Source: Candidatus Cloacimonadota bacterium
Lineage (GTDB): Bacteria > Cloacimonadota > Cloacimonadia > Cloacimonadales > Cloacimonadaceae
DNA length: 64,000 nucleotides
Direction: 5' to 3'
Assembly (NCBI GenBank): GCA_012839325.1
Contig: DUNQ01000029.1
Coordinates: 1-64,000 of the forward strand
Under the pieces are notes generated by a model. The model did no database searches, was not told the origin of the DNA, and saw nothing but the letters and a program-made list of their open reading frames with translations. Each line of letters opens with the position of its first letter. Position 1 is the stretch's first letter. The position numbers and the translations under genes were made by a program. Shown piece by piece: positions 2,097 through 59,469 of this stretch.

Positions 2097-4916
2097 ATGA
2101 AAACAAGTTGCAGGGTGCCAAGCCTGATTCTCTTGGTGATGTTTATTTTAAGCGTCGGACTAAGTCTCGCAGATGCCAGCGATTACAGTTCCATCTTTGC
2201 CGGAGATCTTGCTGTTTATTTTGACGGTGAGACAATTATCTATGCCGAGGCGCAGATCATAGAGCCTCAAGATACCAACTACTTTGAAGAAATAACTTCT
2301 GTAAACTTACATTACAGTTTTGACTTAGGTGAAAACTGGAATCAACATCAAATACCTGCACCCACAGACGAAACTTGGACTCACAAACCCGTACTCTGCG
2401 ATTTTGATGGCTCTCTTGTGCTTGCGATAGGCAATGCGCGCTTTCTTCTCAGTTTTTCAGAAGATGTTTTGCTGGCTGAAGAATTGCCCGATGCCGATTT
2501 CGTGCTCGATACCGATTTAACTCCCTATCCCTTCATGCGCGACGGTGAGGAACATCTTTTCAAGGTAAATCAACCCTACCCTGATCGCCTTCAATATCAG
2601 TTTACCAAAGATGGAATCACTGACATACGCAATCCGCTTTATGGATATTACTACGATACCTATAAAACCATGAATAACGGGCTTATAGAATGGGGGGTTG
2701 GCGGTGAGGTAAATGCTCCTGTCTGCACAAGACACGATTTTTATGTAAGACAATTTAACAATTATCAAGGAGTGTTCAACGCTCCCGTCATCTGCGGTGG
2801 AGATCTTTTAACAACTTTTATTAACTTAGACCCTGACGATGTGTTTTTAGGCGGAGCCTACGATAATATTGAGTTTGCCGGCATAAGCGGTAGCAATCCG
2901 GTGCGGGAAACCGGCTTTCATATCAATTATAATACTCCCGATAGAACCATAGTCTTTCTCGATGTCCAAGGCGCAGAAATCACCTGTCTCCTGGGCACTC
3001 TTTCCCTGCCAAGAAGAGTGAATGCAGATGTTTATTATCCCTATCCGCCACATCCCGACCAAGCCCCGCTTTATACCAATGTCTATACGGTTCGTGATAC
3101 TGTGTGGACGCCCCTTGATATCTCTTCTGCTCAAATCAAAAACCTCTTTGTAGATGGCGAGCTTTGGTTGAAAGGTGATTTTAGTGGTCATCATATTCTT
3201 AGCGCCAGCGGGGATATCAAGCTCATCGGCGATATTACGCTATCCAATACCGTCCCCGGCGATGATGTGAATACAAATACTGAGGATTCAGTTCACTTAA
3301 TCGGCGAGAGAAATGTGATGATTGGTTATGGTTATAAACACCCGATTACAAATGAGCGCATCCATCCTTTTTGCTGTGCAGATAGTGATCCATGTTATAT
3401 CTATGCAAATATATATGCTTTGGGAAAAGAGCAGCGTACCGGGCTCTTCACCTTTGAATATCAGCATCCTCATCCTTCCGTTCCGGCATTTTATGATTTT
3501 GACTATCCTTCAGGTCAGGTTACTTACCATGATAATGTGGATATTCATCGCTATAGATATCCTCCCACAGCTACGGAGCCCTGGCCTATGAGCCTCGATT
3601 TACCATATTACAATCCGCTATGGCCGGAAGCTCAGCCTTATGGTGAAAGAGGCAAATTGCTCGTGAAAGGTAATGTTTTTCAAAATAGATACGGATATCT
3701 GCACCGCAGTGGAAATGATAGTCAATATCCTTCCAATAACGGAGTTTGGGATGTGGAAAACGATATGTGTGGCGGTCCCATTAATACACCTCCATACAAC
3801 GACTTCTATCCGGGCACTTTAGCCACCAGACCCTATCCCGGTGCTGCCGGCTTTGGAAGCGGCTATAAATATGAAATTACTCCGGACCTACGTTTTAATG
3901 AAATAAATACATCCATCTTTAGCTATGTTTTCGATCACGGGATAAACCTTGTAAATCAAGAGGGGATAATCCTGCCCACGATAAATGAGAAGGTGGTAAC
4001 CACTAAAGCAACGCAGAAAAAGATCTTTGCCAAGAGCGAAAACAGATATGCCTTTGCCCACAACAACAGCATTCTCTATGACGATGGCACCGGTAATCTT
4101 CAAGACCTCACCCAGCTCAACAGCTGGTATATGCCCGGGCACATCAATGATCGCTATAAGATCGTGGATATGGTGTTTTCACCTATGAACACGCTTGCTA
4201 TACTGGCTTCTTATAACAATGATCGTGGTCTTGGACTCATGCTCATCAATCTTGGAGATATGAGCTTCCAAGATATAAAGTCATTCAATTCCGGGCATGA
4301 AATTACCAGTGCTTCTCTTACAAAAACTATTCGTAACACGCTACATTTAGCTTATGTAAGCAACAACCAACTCTTTGTAAATATGATTTGGTGGGGCGGT
4401 GTGGGCAGTGACCCCGTATATGGGTGGCACTGTGAGCCTTATGGTTTAGTCGATAATTACGTGCCGGATAATTGCTCTATCAGCTTCAATATTATGTTGG
4501 AGTATTCTAATGGTATCTTCCCGATTGTGCTATTTGAAAATACCTCCGGCTTACCTTATTCCGGCTGGGGAAATGTGAGCTTTAAGAATTATTATGGATA
4601 TGTTTCAAATGAAGACGAGCTCATCCCGAGTGTGAAGGACTTTGCCCTCAGCTGCTATCCAAATCCTGTGCGCAGCCTCGTTCAGCTCAAGTTAGACACT
4701 CCGCTGCCCACAGAGCATCACGAAGTGGAAATCTATAACCTGCGCGGACAAAAGGTTAACATCATCACCGATACCGGCAAAAAGAGCAACACCGGCTTTG
4801 AATACGATTGGAACCTAAAAGATGTAAATGATAGAAAGGTATCTTCCGGCATCTATTTCATCCGCATAAAAGTAGATGGAAAGACCAAGATAAGCAAGAA
4901 GATTACAGTGTTATAA
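2097..4916 (+). CDS. Large secreted protein with T9SS-type sorting domain (paralogue 1)
   Basis: This is a 939-residue protein of unknown function. A clear signal peptide covers residues 1-27 (basic MKTSCR, hydrophobic core ending in LADA). The mature part is rich in aromatic residues and turns and looks beta-rich; I recognise no enzyme motif. From about residue 850 there is a T9SS/FlgD-like C-terminal domain (SCYPNPVRS, NLRGQKV, SSGIYFIRIK, final KKITVL). An AAGGAG ribosome site lies 9 bp before the ATG. The next gene encodes a close paralogue with the same order of segments, so this is a recent tandem duplication. Secretion and surface display are inferred from the two terminal signals. Confidence 0.85.
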   Translation: MKTSCRVPSLILLVMFILSVGLSLADASDYSSIFAGDLAVYFDGETIIYAEAQIIEPQDTNYFEEITSVNLHYSFDLGENWNQHQIPAPTDETWTHKPVLCDFDGSLVLAIGNARFLLSFSEDVLLAEELPDADFVLDTDLTPYPFMRDGEEHLFKVNQPYPDRLQYQFTKDGITDIRNPLYGYYYDTYKTMNNGLIEWGVGGEVNAPVCTRHDFYVRQFNNYQGVFNAPVICGGDLLTTFINLDPDDVFLGGAYDNIEFAGISGSNPVRETGFHINYNTPDRTIVFLDVQGAEITCLLGTLSLPRRVNADVYYPYPPHPDQAPLYTNVYTVRDTVWTPLDISSAQIKNLFVDGELWLKGDFSGHHILSASGDIKLIGDITLSNTVPGDDVNTNTEDSVHLIGERNVMIGYGYKHPITNERIHPFCCADSDPCYIYANIYALGKEQRTGLFTFEYQHPHPSVPAFYDFDYPSGQVTYHDNVDIHRYRYPPTATEPWPMSLDLPYYNPLWPEAQPYGERGKLLVKGNVFQNRYGYLHRSGNDSQYPSNNGVWDVENDMCGGPINTPPYNDFYPGTLATRPYPGAAGFGSGYKYEITPDLRFNEINTSIFSYVFDHGINLVNQEGIILPTINEKVVTTKATQKKIFAKSENRYAFAHNNSILYDDGTGNLQDLTQLNSWYMPGHINDRYKIVDMVFSPMNTLAILASYNNDRGLGLMLINLGDMSFQDIKSFNSGHEITSASLTKTIRNTLHLAYVSNNQLFVNMIWWGGVGSDPVYGWHCEPYGLVDNYVPDNCSISFNIMLEYSNGIFPIVLFENTSGLPYSGWGNVSFKNYYGYVSNEDELIPSVKDFALSCYPNPVRSLVQLKLDTPLPTEHHEVEIYNLRGQKVNIITDTGKKSNTGFEYDWNLKDVNDRKVSSGIYFIRIKVDGKTKISKKITVL

Positions 4917-4984
4917 TTTTCTTTAGATAATTAATATGCAAAACCAGTAGATTAACAAAGCGAAATTAATATAAGGAGAGAAAA

Positions 4985-7852
4985 GTGAAAGTACGTTATC
5001 GGGTGCCAAGCCTGATTCTCTTGGCTATGTTTGTTTTAAGCGTTGGACTAAGTCTCGCAAATACCACCGACTACAGCTCCATATTTGCCGATGATCTTGC
5101 CATCTATTACGATAGCGAGATATTTATATATGCCGAGGCGCAGATCGCTGAGCCTCAAGATAATAACTATTTTGAAGAAATCACAGCAGTAAACTTACAT
5201 TACAGTTTTGACATGGGTGCAAACTGGGATCAACATATAATACCCGTTCCCGACAGTAAAACTTGGACACACAAGCCCGTGCTCAACGAGATCGAAGGCA
5301 ATATCGTGCTTTCCATAGGCAATACACGCTTCAATGTAATTCCCTCAGAAGGTGCTTTGTTAGTCCAAGAATTGCCCGATGCCGAATATATGCCGGGTAC
5401 AGATTTAGCCCCATATCCCTTCATGCGCAATAACGAAGAATACCTTTTCAAGGTAGATCAACCCTATCCTGAACGCATTCAATATGAATTCACCAAGGAT
5501 GGAACTGCCGACATCCGCAACATGCCTTACGGCGTTTTCTATGAGCAATTTAAGTCAATGAACGACACTACAGTTTTTTGGACTTTGCCCAATAGTTTAT
5601 CTGCTCCTGCTTGCAGTCGTGATAACTTCTTAATCCATTACTCCAACCTCTATCCCGGAATGTTTCAAGCTCCGGTAATCTGCAAAGGAGAAATGCAGTG
5701 CCCTGATGGCATTGACCAGAGCGAAATCTTTGAAAAAGGCTACCACGAAAAACAAGATTTTAATGGCATGAGCGGCGACAATCCGGTGCGTGCATACGGC
5801 ACAATTATCAATGGTCACGGCAACGCTCCTGATAGAACCATTATTTATCTCGATTACCAAGGCAATAACCTTACGGCAATGGAAGGCACCATTTTGACGC
5901 CAAGAAGAGTGGAAGTAGATGTCTATGACACCTATCCGCCCGATGCTTCCTCAACGCTACTTTACACAAATAGCTACACGGTTCAGGATACGCTTTGGTC
6001 TCCGTTTAGCATAAGTCCAGGGCAGAAAAATATCTTTGTAAATGCCGAGCTTTGGCTGAAAGGTAACTTTAGCGGTCATCACAATATAAGCGCAAGCAGG
6101 GATATCAAGATAATTGGAGATATCACCTTAGCCAATACCGCTGCCGGCGACGATATGAATACAAATAATGAGGATTCTGTAAACCTGATCAGCGAGAGAA
6201 ATGTGGTGATCGCCTACGGTTATAAAGATCCTATTACAAACGAGCGTATCCATCCATTCTGTCGTGCAGATGATGATCCCGCTTATATATATGCAAATAT
6301 CTATGCCATGGGCAATCAGCAGCGTACAGGGCTCTTCACCTTTGAATATCAGCATCCCCATCCTTCTACACCGGCGGCACTTATAGAGGAGGATGGTGAG
6401 CAAGTTCTCTATGAAAATATAGATATCCATCGCCGTAAATATCCTCCCACAGCTGCCGAGCCATGGCCTGCAAATCTCGATTTGCCATATTACAATCCCC
6501 TCTGGCCGGAAGCTAATCCCTATAAGGAAAGAGGTAAAATTATTGTGATGGGAAATGTATATCAAAATAGGAAAGGCTACGTGCATCGTAGTGGAAGTGA
6601 TAGCGAATACCCCTCCAATAGCGGAGTTTGGGATGTAGAGCTTGATATGTGTGGCGGGCCTATATCTGCGCCGCCAATAGAGGATCCCATTCTCGGTATC
6701 ACGATGCAAGCTCAGAACTATCCCGGCGCAAGCGGTACCGGAGCAGGCTATAAATATGAAATGTACCCGGATTTACGTCTATTCGAGTTAGCCGACCTTT
6801 ACGGAAATAACTCCTTCATCTTTAACCATATTTTCGATCACGGGATAAACATTGTAAACCAAGCCGGAGAGAGCCTTCCCATAAGGCATGAGAAGGTGAT
6901 AACTGCCAAAGCCACTCAGAAAAAGATCTTTGCAAAGCGTGGAAATAAACATGCCTTTGTCCACAATAACAGCATTATCTACGACGACGGCTCCGGATAC
7001 TTGAAAGACCTCACCCGGCTCAACTATTGGTATATCACTAAACGCTACAATCCAGATGATTCTTACAAGATCAGGGATATGATTCTTTCAGATGAGAACA
7101 CGCTTATTGTGCTGTTATCTTACACCGGCACCCACCACTATATTCTGGAAATGTTGCTCATCAATCTGCAGGATTTTACCTTTAGTAATATGGGGTCATC
7201 TTATTCCGAGCATGAATTCACCAGTGCCTCTCTTAGCACGAGACCTTCTTGGGGAGATGATGATGACTGTTTTTATGTTGCCTATGTGACTAATAGCGAA
7301 CTCTTTGTAAACAAGGCTTGGTGGGAAGCAGGTGATGACTGGGGAGAAGTTTATTACCATTGTTACCATATCCCATACACCTTACAAGACAATTCTGTGC
7401 CGGAAAATTGCTCTTTCAGCCTCAATGTTTCACCGGATACAGATAACACCTACTTCCCGGTTGTGCTATTTGAAGACACCTCCGGCATGCCTTATTCCGG
7501 CTGGGGAAATGTGAGTTTTAAGAACTATCACGGACATGTTTCAAATGAGGACGATCACATCCCGAGCGTGAAAGACTTTGCGCTCAGCTGCTATCCAAAT
7601 CCTGCGCGCAGCCTAATTCAGCTCAAGCTGGATACTCCGCTTCATACACAGCATCACGAAGTGGAGATCTATAACCTGCGCGGACAAAAGGTTAACAGCA
7701 TCACCGATACCGGCAAAAAGAGCAACACCGGCTTTGAATATGATTGGAACCTAAGAGATGCAAATAACAAAAAGGTCTCTTCCGGCATCTATTTCATTCG
7801 CGTGAAGGTAGATGGAAAGACCAAGATCAGCAAGAAGATTACAGTGCTTTGA
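4985..7852 (+). CDS. Large secreted protein with T9SS-type sorting domain (paralogue 2)
   Basis: This 955-residue paralogue follows the preceding gene after 68 bp. It starts with GTG behind an AAGGAGAG ribosome site. The signal peptide (MKVRYR, then a hydrophobic run ending in LSLAN) and the sorting domain (SCYPNPARS, NLRGQKV, SSGIYFIRVK, KKITVL) are almost the same as in its neighbour. The middle (for example the YPPTAAEPWP and HPHPS segments) is strongly conserved, while several loops differ by insertions. Identity is visibly highest over the last ~100 residues, as expected of a shared export signal. The function of the mature part is unknown. No terminator separates the two genes, so they are probably co-transcribed. 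Confidence 0.85.
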   Translation: MKVRYRVPSLILLAMFVLSVGLSLANTTDYSSIFADDLAIYYDSEIFIYAEAQIAEPQDNNYFEEITAVNLHYSFDMGANWDQHIIPVPDSKTWTHKPVLNEIEGNIVLSIGNTRFNVIPSEGALLVQELPDAEYMPGTDLAPYPFMRNNEEYLFKVDQPYPERIQYEFTKDGTADIRNMPYGVFYEQFKSMNDTTVFWTLPNSLSAPACSRDNFLIHYSNLYPGMFQAPVICKGEMQCPDGIDQSEIFEKGYHEKQDFNGMSGDNPVRAYGTIINGHGNAPDRTIIYLDYQGNNLTAMEGTILTPRRVEVDVYDTYPPDASSTLLYTNSYTVQDTLWSPFSISPGQKNIFVNAELWLKGNFSGHHNISASRDIKIIGDITLANTAAGDDMNTNNEDSVNLISERNVVIAYGYKDPITNERIHPFCRADDDPAYIYANIYAMGNQQRTGLFTFEYQHPHPSTPAALIEEDGEQVLYENIDIHRRKYPPTAAEPWPANLDLPYYNPLWPEANPYKERGKIIVMGNVYQNRKGYVHRSGSDSEYPSNSGVWDVELDMCGGPISAPPIEDPILGITMQAQNYPGASGTGAGYKYEMYPDLRLFELADLYGNNSFIFNHIFDHGINIVNQAGESLPIRHEKVITAKATQKKIFAKRGNKHAFVHNNSIIYDDGSGYLKDLTRLNYWYITKRYNPDDSYKIRDMILSDENTLIVLLSYTGTHHYILEMLLINLQDFTFSNMGSSYSEHEFTSASLSTRPSWGDDDDCFYVAYVTNSELFVNKAWWEAGDDWGEVYYHCYHIPYTLQDNSVPENCSFSLNVSPDTDNTYFPVVLFEDTSGMPYSGWGNVSFKNYHGHVSNEDDHIPSVKDFALSCYPNPARSLIQLKLDTPLHTQHHEVEIYNLRGQKVNSITDTGKKSNTGFEYDWNLRDANNKKVSSGIYFIRVKVDGKTKISKKITVL

Positions 7853-13117: not shown

Positions 13118-13179
13118 TCTGTTTTTTTGTCCTTTTTCTGTTCCATGAGCAATTCCTTTCGCAGCTACGCTCTAAGTCA

Positions 13180-13277
13180 TTGCTTCCCTATTGATTGCTG
13201 CCTATCTTCCGCTTATGATGTGCTCATGGCTATGACCATATCATGACCACATCATCACCGGAACCCTATAAGGAAGC
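13180..13277 (+). repeat. Family A palindromic intergenic repeat, copy 2
   Basis: Outer GCTTCCCTA ... TAAGGAAGC ends are visible. Inner pairings are TTCCG (13207-13211) with CGGAA (13259-13263), ATGATGTG (13215-13222) with CACATCAT (13248-13255), and TCATG (13224-13228) with CATGA (13242-13246), around a loop of about 13 nt. It lies in the gap after the broken cyclase-ATPase gene. Confidence 0.9.
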
Positions 13278-13397
13278 CATGAAAAAGAGGGCAGAATTTA
13301 CTCGATAAACCAGTATGTGCGGCAGGGAAAAAAACATCATGCTTGACAGGCATGCGCTTTCCTTCTTAGTGGTGCAAATCATCAAATTGGAGTAATA

Positions 13398-13829: not shown

Positions 13830-13846
13830 CTTAACGCCCTTGGTTT

Positions 13847-13937
13847 GGGCAGGCAACATCCTGTTGCCTGAGAAAGCGTAGCTTTCTATATATCAGTAGG
13901 TTAACGTTCCCGTTGACCGAGAAAACCCCAGTTTCTG
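13847..13937 (+). repeat. Family B twin-hairpin elements (two units)
   Basis: Unit 1 (13847-13889) has a perfect 9-bp stem CAGGCAACA / TGTTGCCTG with a TCC loop, followed at once by AGAAAGC / GCTTTCT with a GTA loop. Unit 2 (13898-13937) has the same plan with different bases: GGTTAACG / CGTTGACC with a TTCC loop, then AGAAA / TTTCT. The first unit is nearly identical to 54280-54322. Confidence 0.85.
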
Positions 13938-14028
13938 TCTTTTAATGCAAGCACCCGCCCGATGTCGCTCGTTGCAACAAGCGCGTCGCAACACCGCCCC
14001 CGTCATCACTTTCGCCCCTGTTTTTGGG

Positions 14029-14070
14029 GCGGGAACGTCCCCGTTGCCGCATGCGCCGTTAGCGCATTCC
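14029..14070 (+). repeat. Family B twin-hairpin element, diverged unit
   Basis: GGGAACG / CGTTGCC (one mismatch) with a TCCC loop is followed by ATGCGC / GCGCAT with a 5-nt loop. It has the same two-stem plan as 13847 but different stem bases. An extra stem CGCCCC / GGGGCG (14013-14031) abuts it. It lies just beyond the 3' end of the minus-strand licD-like gene and may act in 3'-end formation. Confidence 0.65.
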
Positions 14071-14072
14071 CT

Positions 14073-14687
14073 CTACTTATCACCCCTATCAAAATACTCA
14101 ATATTACAACCACATTCATCCCGAAAATCATAGTCCTTCTTAGGTGTCCGCCAGTCCCCATAATGCCTGGTAAGATATCCATCATAATCCTGTGGAATAT
14201 AATACTCTCTACCGTTAAATTCTCTTTTCACCCTCTCGTCCAAATGCCTTGCCTCACAAGATTGCAGGATGGGCTCATCACTTTGCACCACCCAATAGTA
14301 GCTGTCTCCATCTTTATATTTCACAAAGATATCCATGAGCTTCTCTTTTTTGAAGATGAAAAACCGGCGTGTATAAACCCGAAACAGGCGGAAAGATTTG
14401 GCAGGAATGGGGCCGCAATTCAAACGAGAAAACCTCAATCGGGTGAGATAACCCGCTTTATATAGCTTTTTTCTCAGCTCTTTCAGGCGCTCGCCATGAT
14501 TGGCAGGGATGGCGATATCCAAATCCGTATCCCAGGGAAGCAGTCTATCTTCCCGAACTATTCCCAATAAAGTGCCCGCATCCAAAGCATAAGGAATATC
14601 TGCTTCTTCCAAAATCTCACACACGTCTTCTAACATCTTTAAAGCATCTTGTAGGTTTTTACCGACCAGTTCTGCACTACCTGCCAT
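14073..14687 (-). CDS. LicD-family phosphotransferase-like protein
   Basis: This 204-residue protein has the LicD/nucleotidyltransferase core: YALDAGTLLGIVRE followed by LPWDTDLDIAIP (residues ~35-62), the GxxLGxxR...D-x-D arrangement that binds metal and nucleotide. LicD proteins move phosphocholine or similar phospho-groups from CDP-linked donors onto cell-surface glycans. Here the acceptor is unknown. The ribosome site is weak (GCAGGAA). It is followed 3' by family B hairpins. Four kb further right lie glycerol-phosphate polymer genes, so a role in surface-polymer decoration is a reasonable inference. Confidence 0.78.
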   Translation of the reverse strand: MAGSAELVGKNLQDALKMLEDVCEILEEADIPYALDAGTLLGIVREDRLLPWDTDLDIAIPANHGERLKELRKKLYKAGYLTRLRFSRLNCGPIPAKSFRLFRVYTRRFFIFKKEKLMDIFVKYKDGDSYYWVVQSDEPILQSCEARHLDERVKREFNGREYYIPQDYDGYLTRHYGDWRTPKKDYDFRDECGCNIEYFDRGDK

Positions 14688-35109: not shown

Positions 35110-35422
35110 CTGATAGTACCTCTTTTAAGTAGCGAGTCCACAATTTATCATTGATACAGAAAATTATTAACTCAGTTTTAAACCACCATAATTATACGCT
35201 ATTTTAGTTTTGCGAAAAATAGTCATAAAACTAAACGGATACATATGTTATGCCATGCACACATTAAGTGATATTCCCTTCAATTTTGTCAAGCAATATG
35301 ATTTCTGCGAGATACAATGTGCGAAATCAAGCTTGTTAAATTGTAGTGATTTATTTCCACAAAATTAGCTGTTTTTTAGCCAAAGCCTCATGAGTTCTCA
35401 CATAGATGAGCCTAAACCATTG
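35110..35422. other. AT-rich flank of the restriction-modification island
   Basis: About 310 bp with no gene. It is low in G+C like the island and contains the leader of the endonuclease gene. A family A repeat begins directly after it, marking a plausible boundary with native sequence. Confidence 0.45.
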
Positions 35423-35517
35423 CTTCCCCATAGGATACAGCTTAGCTTCCGCTTATGATATGCTCATGGCGATGACCATATCATGACCACATCATGACCG
35501 GAACCCAATAGGGAAGA
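35423..35517 (+). repeat. Family A palindromic intergenic repeat, copy 3
   Basis: GCTTCCCCATAGG ... CCCAATAGGGAAG ends with the ATGATATG-C-TCATG / CATGACCACATCAT core. It lies between the AT-rich island and the 3' end of the AMMECR1 gene. Confidence 0.9.
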
Positions 35518-35553
35518 CTTGGAAAAAATGCAGAAAATGTGGCAAAATATCAA

Positions 35554-39977: not shown

Positions 39978-40052
39978 GCGGGAATAGCTCAGTGGTAGAG
40001 CGCTACCTTGCCAAGGTAGATGTCGCGGGTTCGACCCCCGTTTCCCGCTCCA
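39978..40052 (+). tRNA. tRNA-Gly (anticodon GCC), copy 1
   Basis: A 75-nt cloverleaf with CCA encoded. Acceptor GCGGGAA / TTCCCGC, anticodon arm CTACC-TTGCCAA-GGTAG, T loop GGTTCGACCCC. Identical to the copy at 40276. Confidence 0.98.
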
Positions 40053-40275: not shown

Positions 40276-40350
40276 GCGGGAATAGCTCAGTGGTAGAGCG
40301 CTACCTTGCCAAGGTAGATGTCGCGGGTTCGACCCCCGTTTCCCGCTCCA
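40276..40350 (+). tRNA. tRNA-Gly (anticodon GCC), copy 2
   Basis: Base-for-base the same 75-nt gene as at 39978, including CCA. The ATG of the HAD phosphatase gene starts 8 nt after its last base, with only T residues between. Confidence 0.98.
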
Positions 40351-54206: not shown

Positions 54207-54279
54207 CGAGCTTCGCTATTGCTGCAGATGTTCTCTGTATAGGCACGGGAAGGGCATGGACAGGCTTTGAGCAGGCTTT

Positions 54280-54322
54280 GGGCAGGCAACATCCTGTTGC
54301 CTGAGAAAGCGCAGCTTTCTAT
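54280..54322 (+). repeat. Family B twin-hairpin element
   Basis: CAGGCAACA / TGTTGCCTG with a TCC loop, then AGAAAGC / GCTTTCT with a GCA loop. It differs from 13847-13889 only in the second loop (GTA to GCA). Two CAGGCTTTG(A/G)G direct repeats lie just before it. Confidence 0.85.
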
Positions 54323-54432
54323 CCTTTGACGCAGAAACGTCCTCATTGCCGCAAGCCTTATCCAAAGAAATCCAAAACAGGTGATATACCTGACTAACAC
54401 ACCAAATCAACAGGCAAAATACATGCATCCCC

Positions 54433-54530
54433 TTGCTTCCCCATAGGATACAGCTTAACTTCCGCCTATGATACGCTCATGCCTATGACCACATCATGAC
54501 CACATCATCACCGGAACCCTATAAGGAAGG
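54433..54530 (+). repeat. Family A palindromic intergenic repeat, copy 4
   Basis: GCTTCCCCATAGG ... CCCTATAAGGAAGG ends with the same internal dyad as the other copies. It lies between the family B element and the 3' end of the minus-strand MBL gene. Confidence 0.9.
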
Positions 54531-54533
54531 CAT

Positions 54534-54571
54534 AGAAAAAAGCGCGGGAAAACAGTAATCCCACGCTTTTA
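54534..54571 (-). terminator. Terminator of the rpmH-to-MBL operon
   Basis: On the minus strand, AAAGCGTGGGA / TCCCGCGCTTT (one A-C mismatch) with a ~9-nt loop is followed by TTTTTC, about 20 bp after the MBL gene stop. Confidence 0.7.
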
Positions 54572-59348: not shown

Positions 59349-59427
59349 TTTTTGTCAAGGCAAAAGCTCATTGTTTTCGTTGATTTTGCGAAGCTGCCGC
59401 GGTCGGTGTGGAGAGGCCGCTTATTGG

Positions 59428-59469
59428 TCAGGTGAGATTCTCTCGCCGGAGAATGCGCAGCTTTCTATC
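59428..59469 (+). repeat. Family B twin-hairpin element, diverged unit
   Basis: GGTGAGA / TCTCGCC with a TTC loop, then GAGAATGC / GCTTTCT-like second stem ending in AGCTTTCTATC as in other copies. The first stem shares no bases with the 13847 unit, yet pairs. Confidence 0.7.

Follow-up and report, generated by a model that had tools for sequence, protein, structure and literature searches.

Twin-hairpin units of a Cloacimonadota genome as probable REP elements of a RAYT system

The small intergenic hairpins that recur in the DNA analyzed here are very probably REP elements of a RAYT (TnpA-REP) system in a Cloacimonadota genome, elements whose movement we infer. We favor this reading because the units share a fixed unpaired tag, because hairpins that share this tag, and the loop as well, lie on both sides of the host's RAYT gene, and because twin hairpins of the same kind flank RAYT genes in other genera. 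A preliminary description of this DNA had offered two explanations for the units, a mobile REP-like DNA hairpin and a structured RNA, and it is the first that the data bear out.

REP/RAYT systems have been studied best in Proteobacteria, and a literature search found no description of one for the Cloacimonadota. What is new here is a REP variant with an NYGG tag and 36 stems under one spacing, in a phylum for which we found no REP description. Which features of its REP a RAYT recognizes is left open by published work, and the answer varies between systems (PMC8266576). A genome with at least 36 stems, one tag, one spacing, and a single RAYT is a natural experiment on whether the tag, the loop, the spacing, or the stem is read. 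Hairpins of this type are not to be read as small RNAs or terminators.

Structure of the hairpin units

The window, by which we mean the entire 64,000-nucleotide stretch that was analyzed, comes from a Cloacimonadota metagenome-assembled genome (MAG) of 2.0 Mb in 147 contigs that is 94.9% complete; its sister species is Cloacimonetes bacterium UBA5456 (90% complete). Four places in the window had been noted as sharing a twin-hairpin plan, and hairpins are present at all four, on the + strand. We distinguish six units there, all on the + strand and either in the same orientation as their neighbors or single, with a tag that reads TTGG or is degraded. Unit 1 (13846..13889), a member of repeat family D8 recognized from its sequence, carries the tag TGG at 13846 and folds as CAGGCAACA-TCC-TGTTGCCTG followed by AGAAAGC-GTA-GCTTTCT (covariance-model match 13846-13870, 20.5 bits). 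Unit 2 (13894..13937; match 13894-13919, 16.4 bits) has a degenerate tag, CAG, then GGTTAACG-TTCC-CGTTGACC and a second stem, GAGAAAACCCCAGTTTCT, and is related to a GGTA-GGTTAACG subfamily. The strongest match belongs to unit 3 (14025..14070; match 14025-14050, 39.0 bits, E=4e-9), in which the tag TGG precedes GCGGGAACG-TCCC-CGTTGCCGC, a stem with a G.G mismatch, and then ATGCGC-CGTTA-GCGCAT.

Some 40 kb further on, unit 4 (54279..54322; match 54279-54303, 20.5 bits) reads TGGG-CAGGCAACA-TCC-TGTTGCCTG and AGAAAGC-GCA-GCTTTCT, and the repeats that start at 13844 (unit 1) and 54277 (unit 4) are 98% identical over 46 nt. The preliminary description overlooked unit 5 (54327..54352), a degenerate copy with the tag TGA and the apex AACGTCCTCATT, whose model match is weak by itself (11.3 bits, E=0.86) and which we placed by its position directly 3' of unit 4. 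Unit 6 (59425..59468), in the gap upstream of groES, was identified from its sequence and a BLAST match: it has the tag TGG, the hairpin CAGGTGAGA-TTC-TCTCGCCGG (pairing read as AGGTGAGA-ttc-TCTCGCC), and a degraded second hairpin, GAGAATGCGCAGCTTTCT. Its repeat, from 59423, is a 76% relative of unit 1, too diverged for the covariance model to reach, and it has kept both the loop and the tag at position -13. A 204-amino-acid open reading frame (ORF) at 14073-14687 lies just 3' of REP units and matches LicD over 50 residues only; it is missing from the orthologous 152-nt gap of the sister species and is possibly a gene fragment gained in a REP-rich gap.

The preliminary description held that the stems change in sequence and yet each finds its complement. 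To avoid circularity, we picked sites by the 12-nt apex AACGNCCNCGTT alone and then examined the outer positions. Over 73 distinct sequences from two species, the covariation score was 0.316, against 0.091±0.013 for shuffled pairings (none of 500 shuffles was as high) and at most 0.082 for slid partners. Pair 8 is Watson-Crick in 61 of 65 host sites, in four pair types, where 19.4 are expected. The sequences are related, so that the shuffles alone overstate the significance, but the slid controls and the presence of at least 36 stem versions among 95 host units make it safe to conclude that the stem covariation is real. The stems also contain G-U pairs. The claim that every stem finds its complement stands less firmly in one place: GGGAACG and CGTTGCC in unit 3 pair imperfectly, with a G.G mismatch that is itself conserved in several subfamilies.

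Outside the stem lies an unpaired YGG, which the preliminary description had not noted. Its first base is exactly 13 nt ahead of the loop, and the full triplet is present in 64 of 65 host and 33 of 34 sister sites. A pyrimidine occupies position -13 and a G position -12 at every site in both species (65/65 and 34/34), with a G at -11 in 64/65 and 33/34, respectively; position 11 of the apex-chosen sites is unpaired. When hairpins were selected by stem and loop only, the tag was found in 95 of 111, compared with 0 of 99 in reversed sequence; conversely, selection by tag and stem only returned the listed pyrimidine loops (TCC, TCT, TCCC, TCCT, CCCT, or CCCC) in 95 of 104 cases. The two free loop positions are pyrimidines without exception at the apex-chosen sites of the host sample. 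Stem length varies from 7 to 10 bp, the combined length of tag and stem is constant, and all of the stem versions share one tag-to-loop distance.

A second stem had been described as following directly on the first. It does so far more often than chance allows: with strict criteria, a second hairpin begins within 8 nt of the first stem in 26 of 95 units, and shuffled sequences gave a mean of 1.0 and a maximum of 4. Those same strict criteria also confine the twin plan to these 26 units. Examples are AGAAAGC-NNN-GCTTTCT and ATGCGC-N-GCGCAT, and one first hairpin can bear second hairpins of either the AGAAAGC or the ATGCGC type, from which it follows that parts have been exchanged. Neighboring units within 150 nt of each other form 50 pairs, of which 31 are co-oriented and 19 inverted. 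Six "+-" inverted pairs are spaced 32 to 35 nt apart, GGTGGATTGCAAGCGTCCCCGCTTGCACC...CTCGACACGAGGACGTGTCGAATCCAAC among them, so that the family contains the inverted pairs at short, regular spacing by which REPINs are recognized; the twin unit itself resembles half of a REPIN. Elsewhere in the host genome, in L025:1-500 (G000:C25), at least five different hairpins follow one another (REP, AGAAAGC, AGCCGACTGAAGTCAGC, AGCCGGC, and GAGCGAAGCGAGC); together they form a palindromic block that faces its own inverted copy, a mosaic that looks like a large BIME.

Copy number, genomic location, and turnover

A covariance model, a search of the whole genome and of its relatives, and a covariation control had been proposed as checks on the preliminary description, and all of them came out positive. 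The covariance model (R1) finds at least 118 matches in the host and 79 in the sister UBA5456, with 0 to 36 in 48 other members of the family. With a 76-nt query, the host yielded 22 good matches and UBA5456 yielded 18; 38 other relatives yielded none. In a 431-kb host sample, no 12-mer is more over-represented than the core AACGCCCTCGTT, with 28 occurrences observed against 0.03 expected, and the 12-nt apex occurs 103 times genome-wide, against 11 for a control pattern. Given this over-representation, the excess over the control pattern, and the retention of pairing in stems whose sequence has changed, the hairpins of the window are not chance structures.

The units are intergenic in a genome whose DNA is 89% coding: 78 of 95 sampled units lie between genes, and the other 17 fall inside short ORFs of 91 to 146 codons that are apparently spurious. 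Gaps between convergent genes are over-represented, with 23 of 69 units compared with 18% of intergenic bases, a figure that comes from a simple ORF caller and counts clustered units as independent.

REP content differed between the host and its sister in all seven orthologous gaps that we compared, some of which contain runs of N in the sister. The gap at the window's first site is 923 nt long in the host, with REPs and the LicD-like ORF, and 152 nt long in the sister, where two other, partly degraded REP-like units are found. Upstream of groES, the sister carries a different unit, TTTGGGGCAATAACA-TCT-TGTTGCCAC, and one host gap of 347 nt with three units corresponds to a sister gap of 100 nt with none. 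No exact insertion or target-site junction was recovered across the seven gaps, whose lengths differ by more than one unit and in which the differences exceed the REP itself. The comparison shows fast change and no clean insertion event. The multi-hairpin gaps of these MAGs are accounted for by REP units.

RAYT genes and known REP systems

The host genome contains one Y1 transposase gene (G000:C101; L050:13252-13905), and its product is a RAYT: it scores 91.5 bits on the NF047646 (REP_Tyr_transpos) model, against a cut-off of 80, and 23.8 bits on the IS200 model, below the cut-off of 55. It has the motifs NHVH and YILNNP, and its sole sequence match among solved structures is 4er8, the E. coli TnpA-REP. 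Four hairpins upstream and six downstream flank the gene; each has its YGG at -13 and a loop of TCCC or TCCT, and most read GTGGAT. Some ten units thus occupy about 1.1 kb, compared with at least 118 model matches over the entire 2.0 Mb.

The same association recurs among relatives. RAYT matches were found in 31 of 50 family genomes, and tagged hairpins (YGG at -13, loop TCY or TCCY) lie on the flanks of the RAYT genes of G007, from the same genus, and of G056, G065, G041, and G019, from four other genera (g4, g5, g9, and g10); the RAYT-flanking hairpins of G050 have CGG or GGG versions. Twin plans occur at the RAYT loci of G065 (L128), G041 (L133), G056 (L134), and G007 (L080). The G065 unit, TTGGG-CTGTCAAGC-TCCT-GCTTGACAG-AAGAAGC-GCA-GCTTCTT, is the twin plan of the window written in other letters and faces a second unit in inverted orientation, an arrangement that G041 shares. 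In G056, the RAYT-flanking unit has the stem GGTTAACG, as in a subfamily of the window, followed by a second hairpin. A tree of 15 proteins places the five RAYTs with tagged flanking hairpins inside one branch of seven (support 96/95); being small and with long branches, it suggests clustering and is not proof of one origin.

The units resemble the REPs, REPINs, and BIMEs of RAYT systems in being short extragenic palindromes with a 5' unpaired tag and stems that change but still pair, and in their high copy number, their pairs in opposite orientation, and the presence of a REP-flanked RAYT in the same genome (PMC2817692, PMC3116915, PMC6006769). They differ from these systems in their tag, which is NYGG (YGG invariant) rather than GT[AG]G, in a 13-nt tag-to-loop distance that is fixed over 36 stems, in their pyrimidine tri- and tetranucleotide loops, and in the second stem that follows many units. 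The strict unpaired tag is NYGG; exact GTGG is found in most RAYT-flanking units and is rare in the others. REP classes that lack GT[AG]G have been described (PMC6006769).

Among known REPs, the short REPs of TnpA-Y1 subclass 2.5 also have a tag 0 to 2 nt from the stem, offset by stem length, so that foot and stem together are near constant (10 to 13 nt there), but they have been reported in Xanthomonads and Pseudomonads and have GT[AG]G tags, and the NHVH and YILNNP motifs of the host RAYT are nearer to subclasses 2.4 and 2.7 than to 2.5 (PMC6006769). We considered whether the "double foot" REPs of subclass 2.4 could explain the twin plan and rejected this, since what lies 3' is a hairpin with a palindrome of its own rather than a reverse-complement tag. 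The degenerated GTAG-1 units of Pseudomonas putida and P. fluorescens TIRtrons are likewise REP palindromes joined directly to an unrelated stem-loop, present in many copies and flanking transposase genes; they differ in sequence and phylum, and here the first hairpin usually retains its tag (PMC3733652). E. coli REPs, the partners of TnpA-REP (4er8), also conserve an internal mismatch, in this resembling the G.G described above, but their tag is strictly GTAG and their loop has little sequence role (PMC8266576).

Work on other RAYTs has established how the process begins, with the tag directing cleavage and, in some systems, a contribution from the loop (PMC8266576). By analogy with the GTGG variant studied there, cleavage is predicted at a CC dinucleotide. 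In the most likely mechanism here, the REP strand would fold into its hairpin when single-stranded, for example as lagging-strand template, and the RAYT, an HUH/tyrosine nuclease, would bind the tag and loop of the folded strand, then nick and rejoin the DNA so that units spread into intergenic gaps. The stem sequence would be free to change provided that pairing is kept, and two facing twin units, as seen near the RAYT genes of relatives, would make up a REPIN. We tentatively propose, as an idea somewhat likelier to fail than to hold, that one clade of Cloacimonadota RAYTs reads a stem-independent code consisting of the unpaired YGG, the fixed 13-nt distance, and the pyrimidine loop, with the twin hairpin as a mobile half-REPIN. 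With such a code, if true, dozens of unrelated stems could exist side by side in a single genome and spread there.

The window's subfamilies CAGGCAACA, GCGGGAACG, and GGTTAACG are not beside the host RAYT, and no RAYT was found in the 90%-complete sister genome despite its many units. For these reasons the subfamilies may be served in trans or may be remnants of lost RAYTs; we infer that they are, or were, mobilized by the host's single RAYT or by a lost relative of it.

Other readings of the units and further features

The preliminary description had also suggested an RNA, for 3'-end processing or as a small RNA. In the broader form of this reading, the units are 3'-end stabilizers, processing sites, or small RNAs, kept by selection on RNA folding. 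Covarying stems with G-U pairs are what such a role would produce, and the surplus of units in convergent-gene gaps means that many are probably transcribed as 3' ends, but nothing in our data supports the role specifically. An Rfam scan of the window at the gathering threshold matched tRNAs only, the difference in gap content between sister species is unexpected for a conserved regulatory RNA, and an RNA role leaves unexplained two hallmarks of REPs, the fixed unpaired YGG 13 nt before the loop and the linkage to RAYT. We therefore consider RNA elements an unlikely explanation of the family. E. coli REPs are known to have a secondary RNA effect, and a secondary RNA role could coexist with the REP role here.

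Less probable still is that the units are passive palindromic repeats with no link to a RAYT, such as MITE relics of an ordinary DNA transposon. The position of the window's subfamilies away from the RAYT, and a sister species with units and no detected RAYT, would agree with passive repeats, but the tag and loop are shared with the RAYT-flanking units, twin units flank RAYT genes in other genera, and neither long terminal inverted repeats nor target duplications turned up in a non-exhaustive search. As GC-rich hairpins in gaps, frequent between convergent genes, the units could also be taken for intrinsic transcription terminators, a reading to which we give very little credence, since a T-rich tract follows the stem in only 13 of 95 units on the REP strand and in 0 of 95 on the other, and terminators lack a common tag and a loop at a fixed distance from it. 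We also rejected CsrA-type GGA loops on the opposite strand: over a third of the loops are CCCT or CCCC and would read AGGG or GGGG there, so that GGA is missing.

Several further features of the window and of the host genome were noted. A separate, longer intergenic repeat of about 100 to 130 nt with TGACCACATCATGACCA motifs occurs at 1812-1939, 13172-13299, 35412-35539, and 54425-54552; it is apparently the family that the preliminary description called A, and it has more than 30 matches in UBA5456, where assembly N runs often start at it. Another sequence, CACAAGTTTACATAACATTTT...TTTTGGGCTCCTATATAA, is conserved in 11 occurrences within 431 kb. At L050:14270-15191 it lies just upstream of a 241-amino-acid cysteine-rich ORF (MKTTFENHSN...), and it has the look of a promoter or cassette leader shared among the members of a multicopy gene family. 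Two tandem paralogous genes of 939 and 955 amino acids, about 70 to 90% identical in blocks, occupy 2097-7852 of the window, and a profile match identifies a type IX secretion sorting domain in the first of them. Two tRNA genes of 75 nt, at 39978-40052 and 40276-40350, are 100% identical and lie 298 bp apart.
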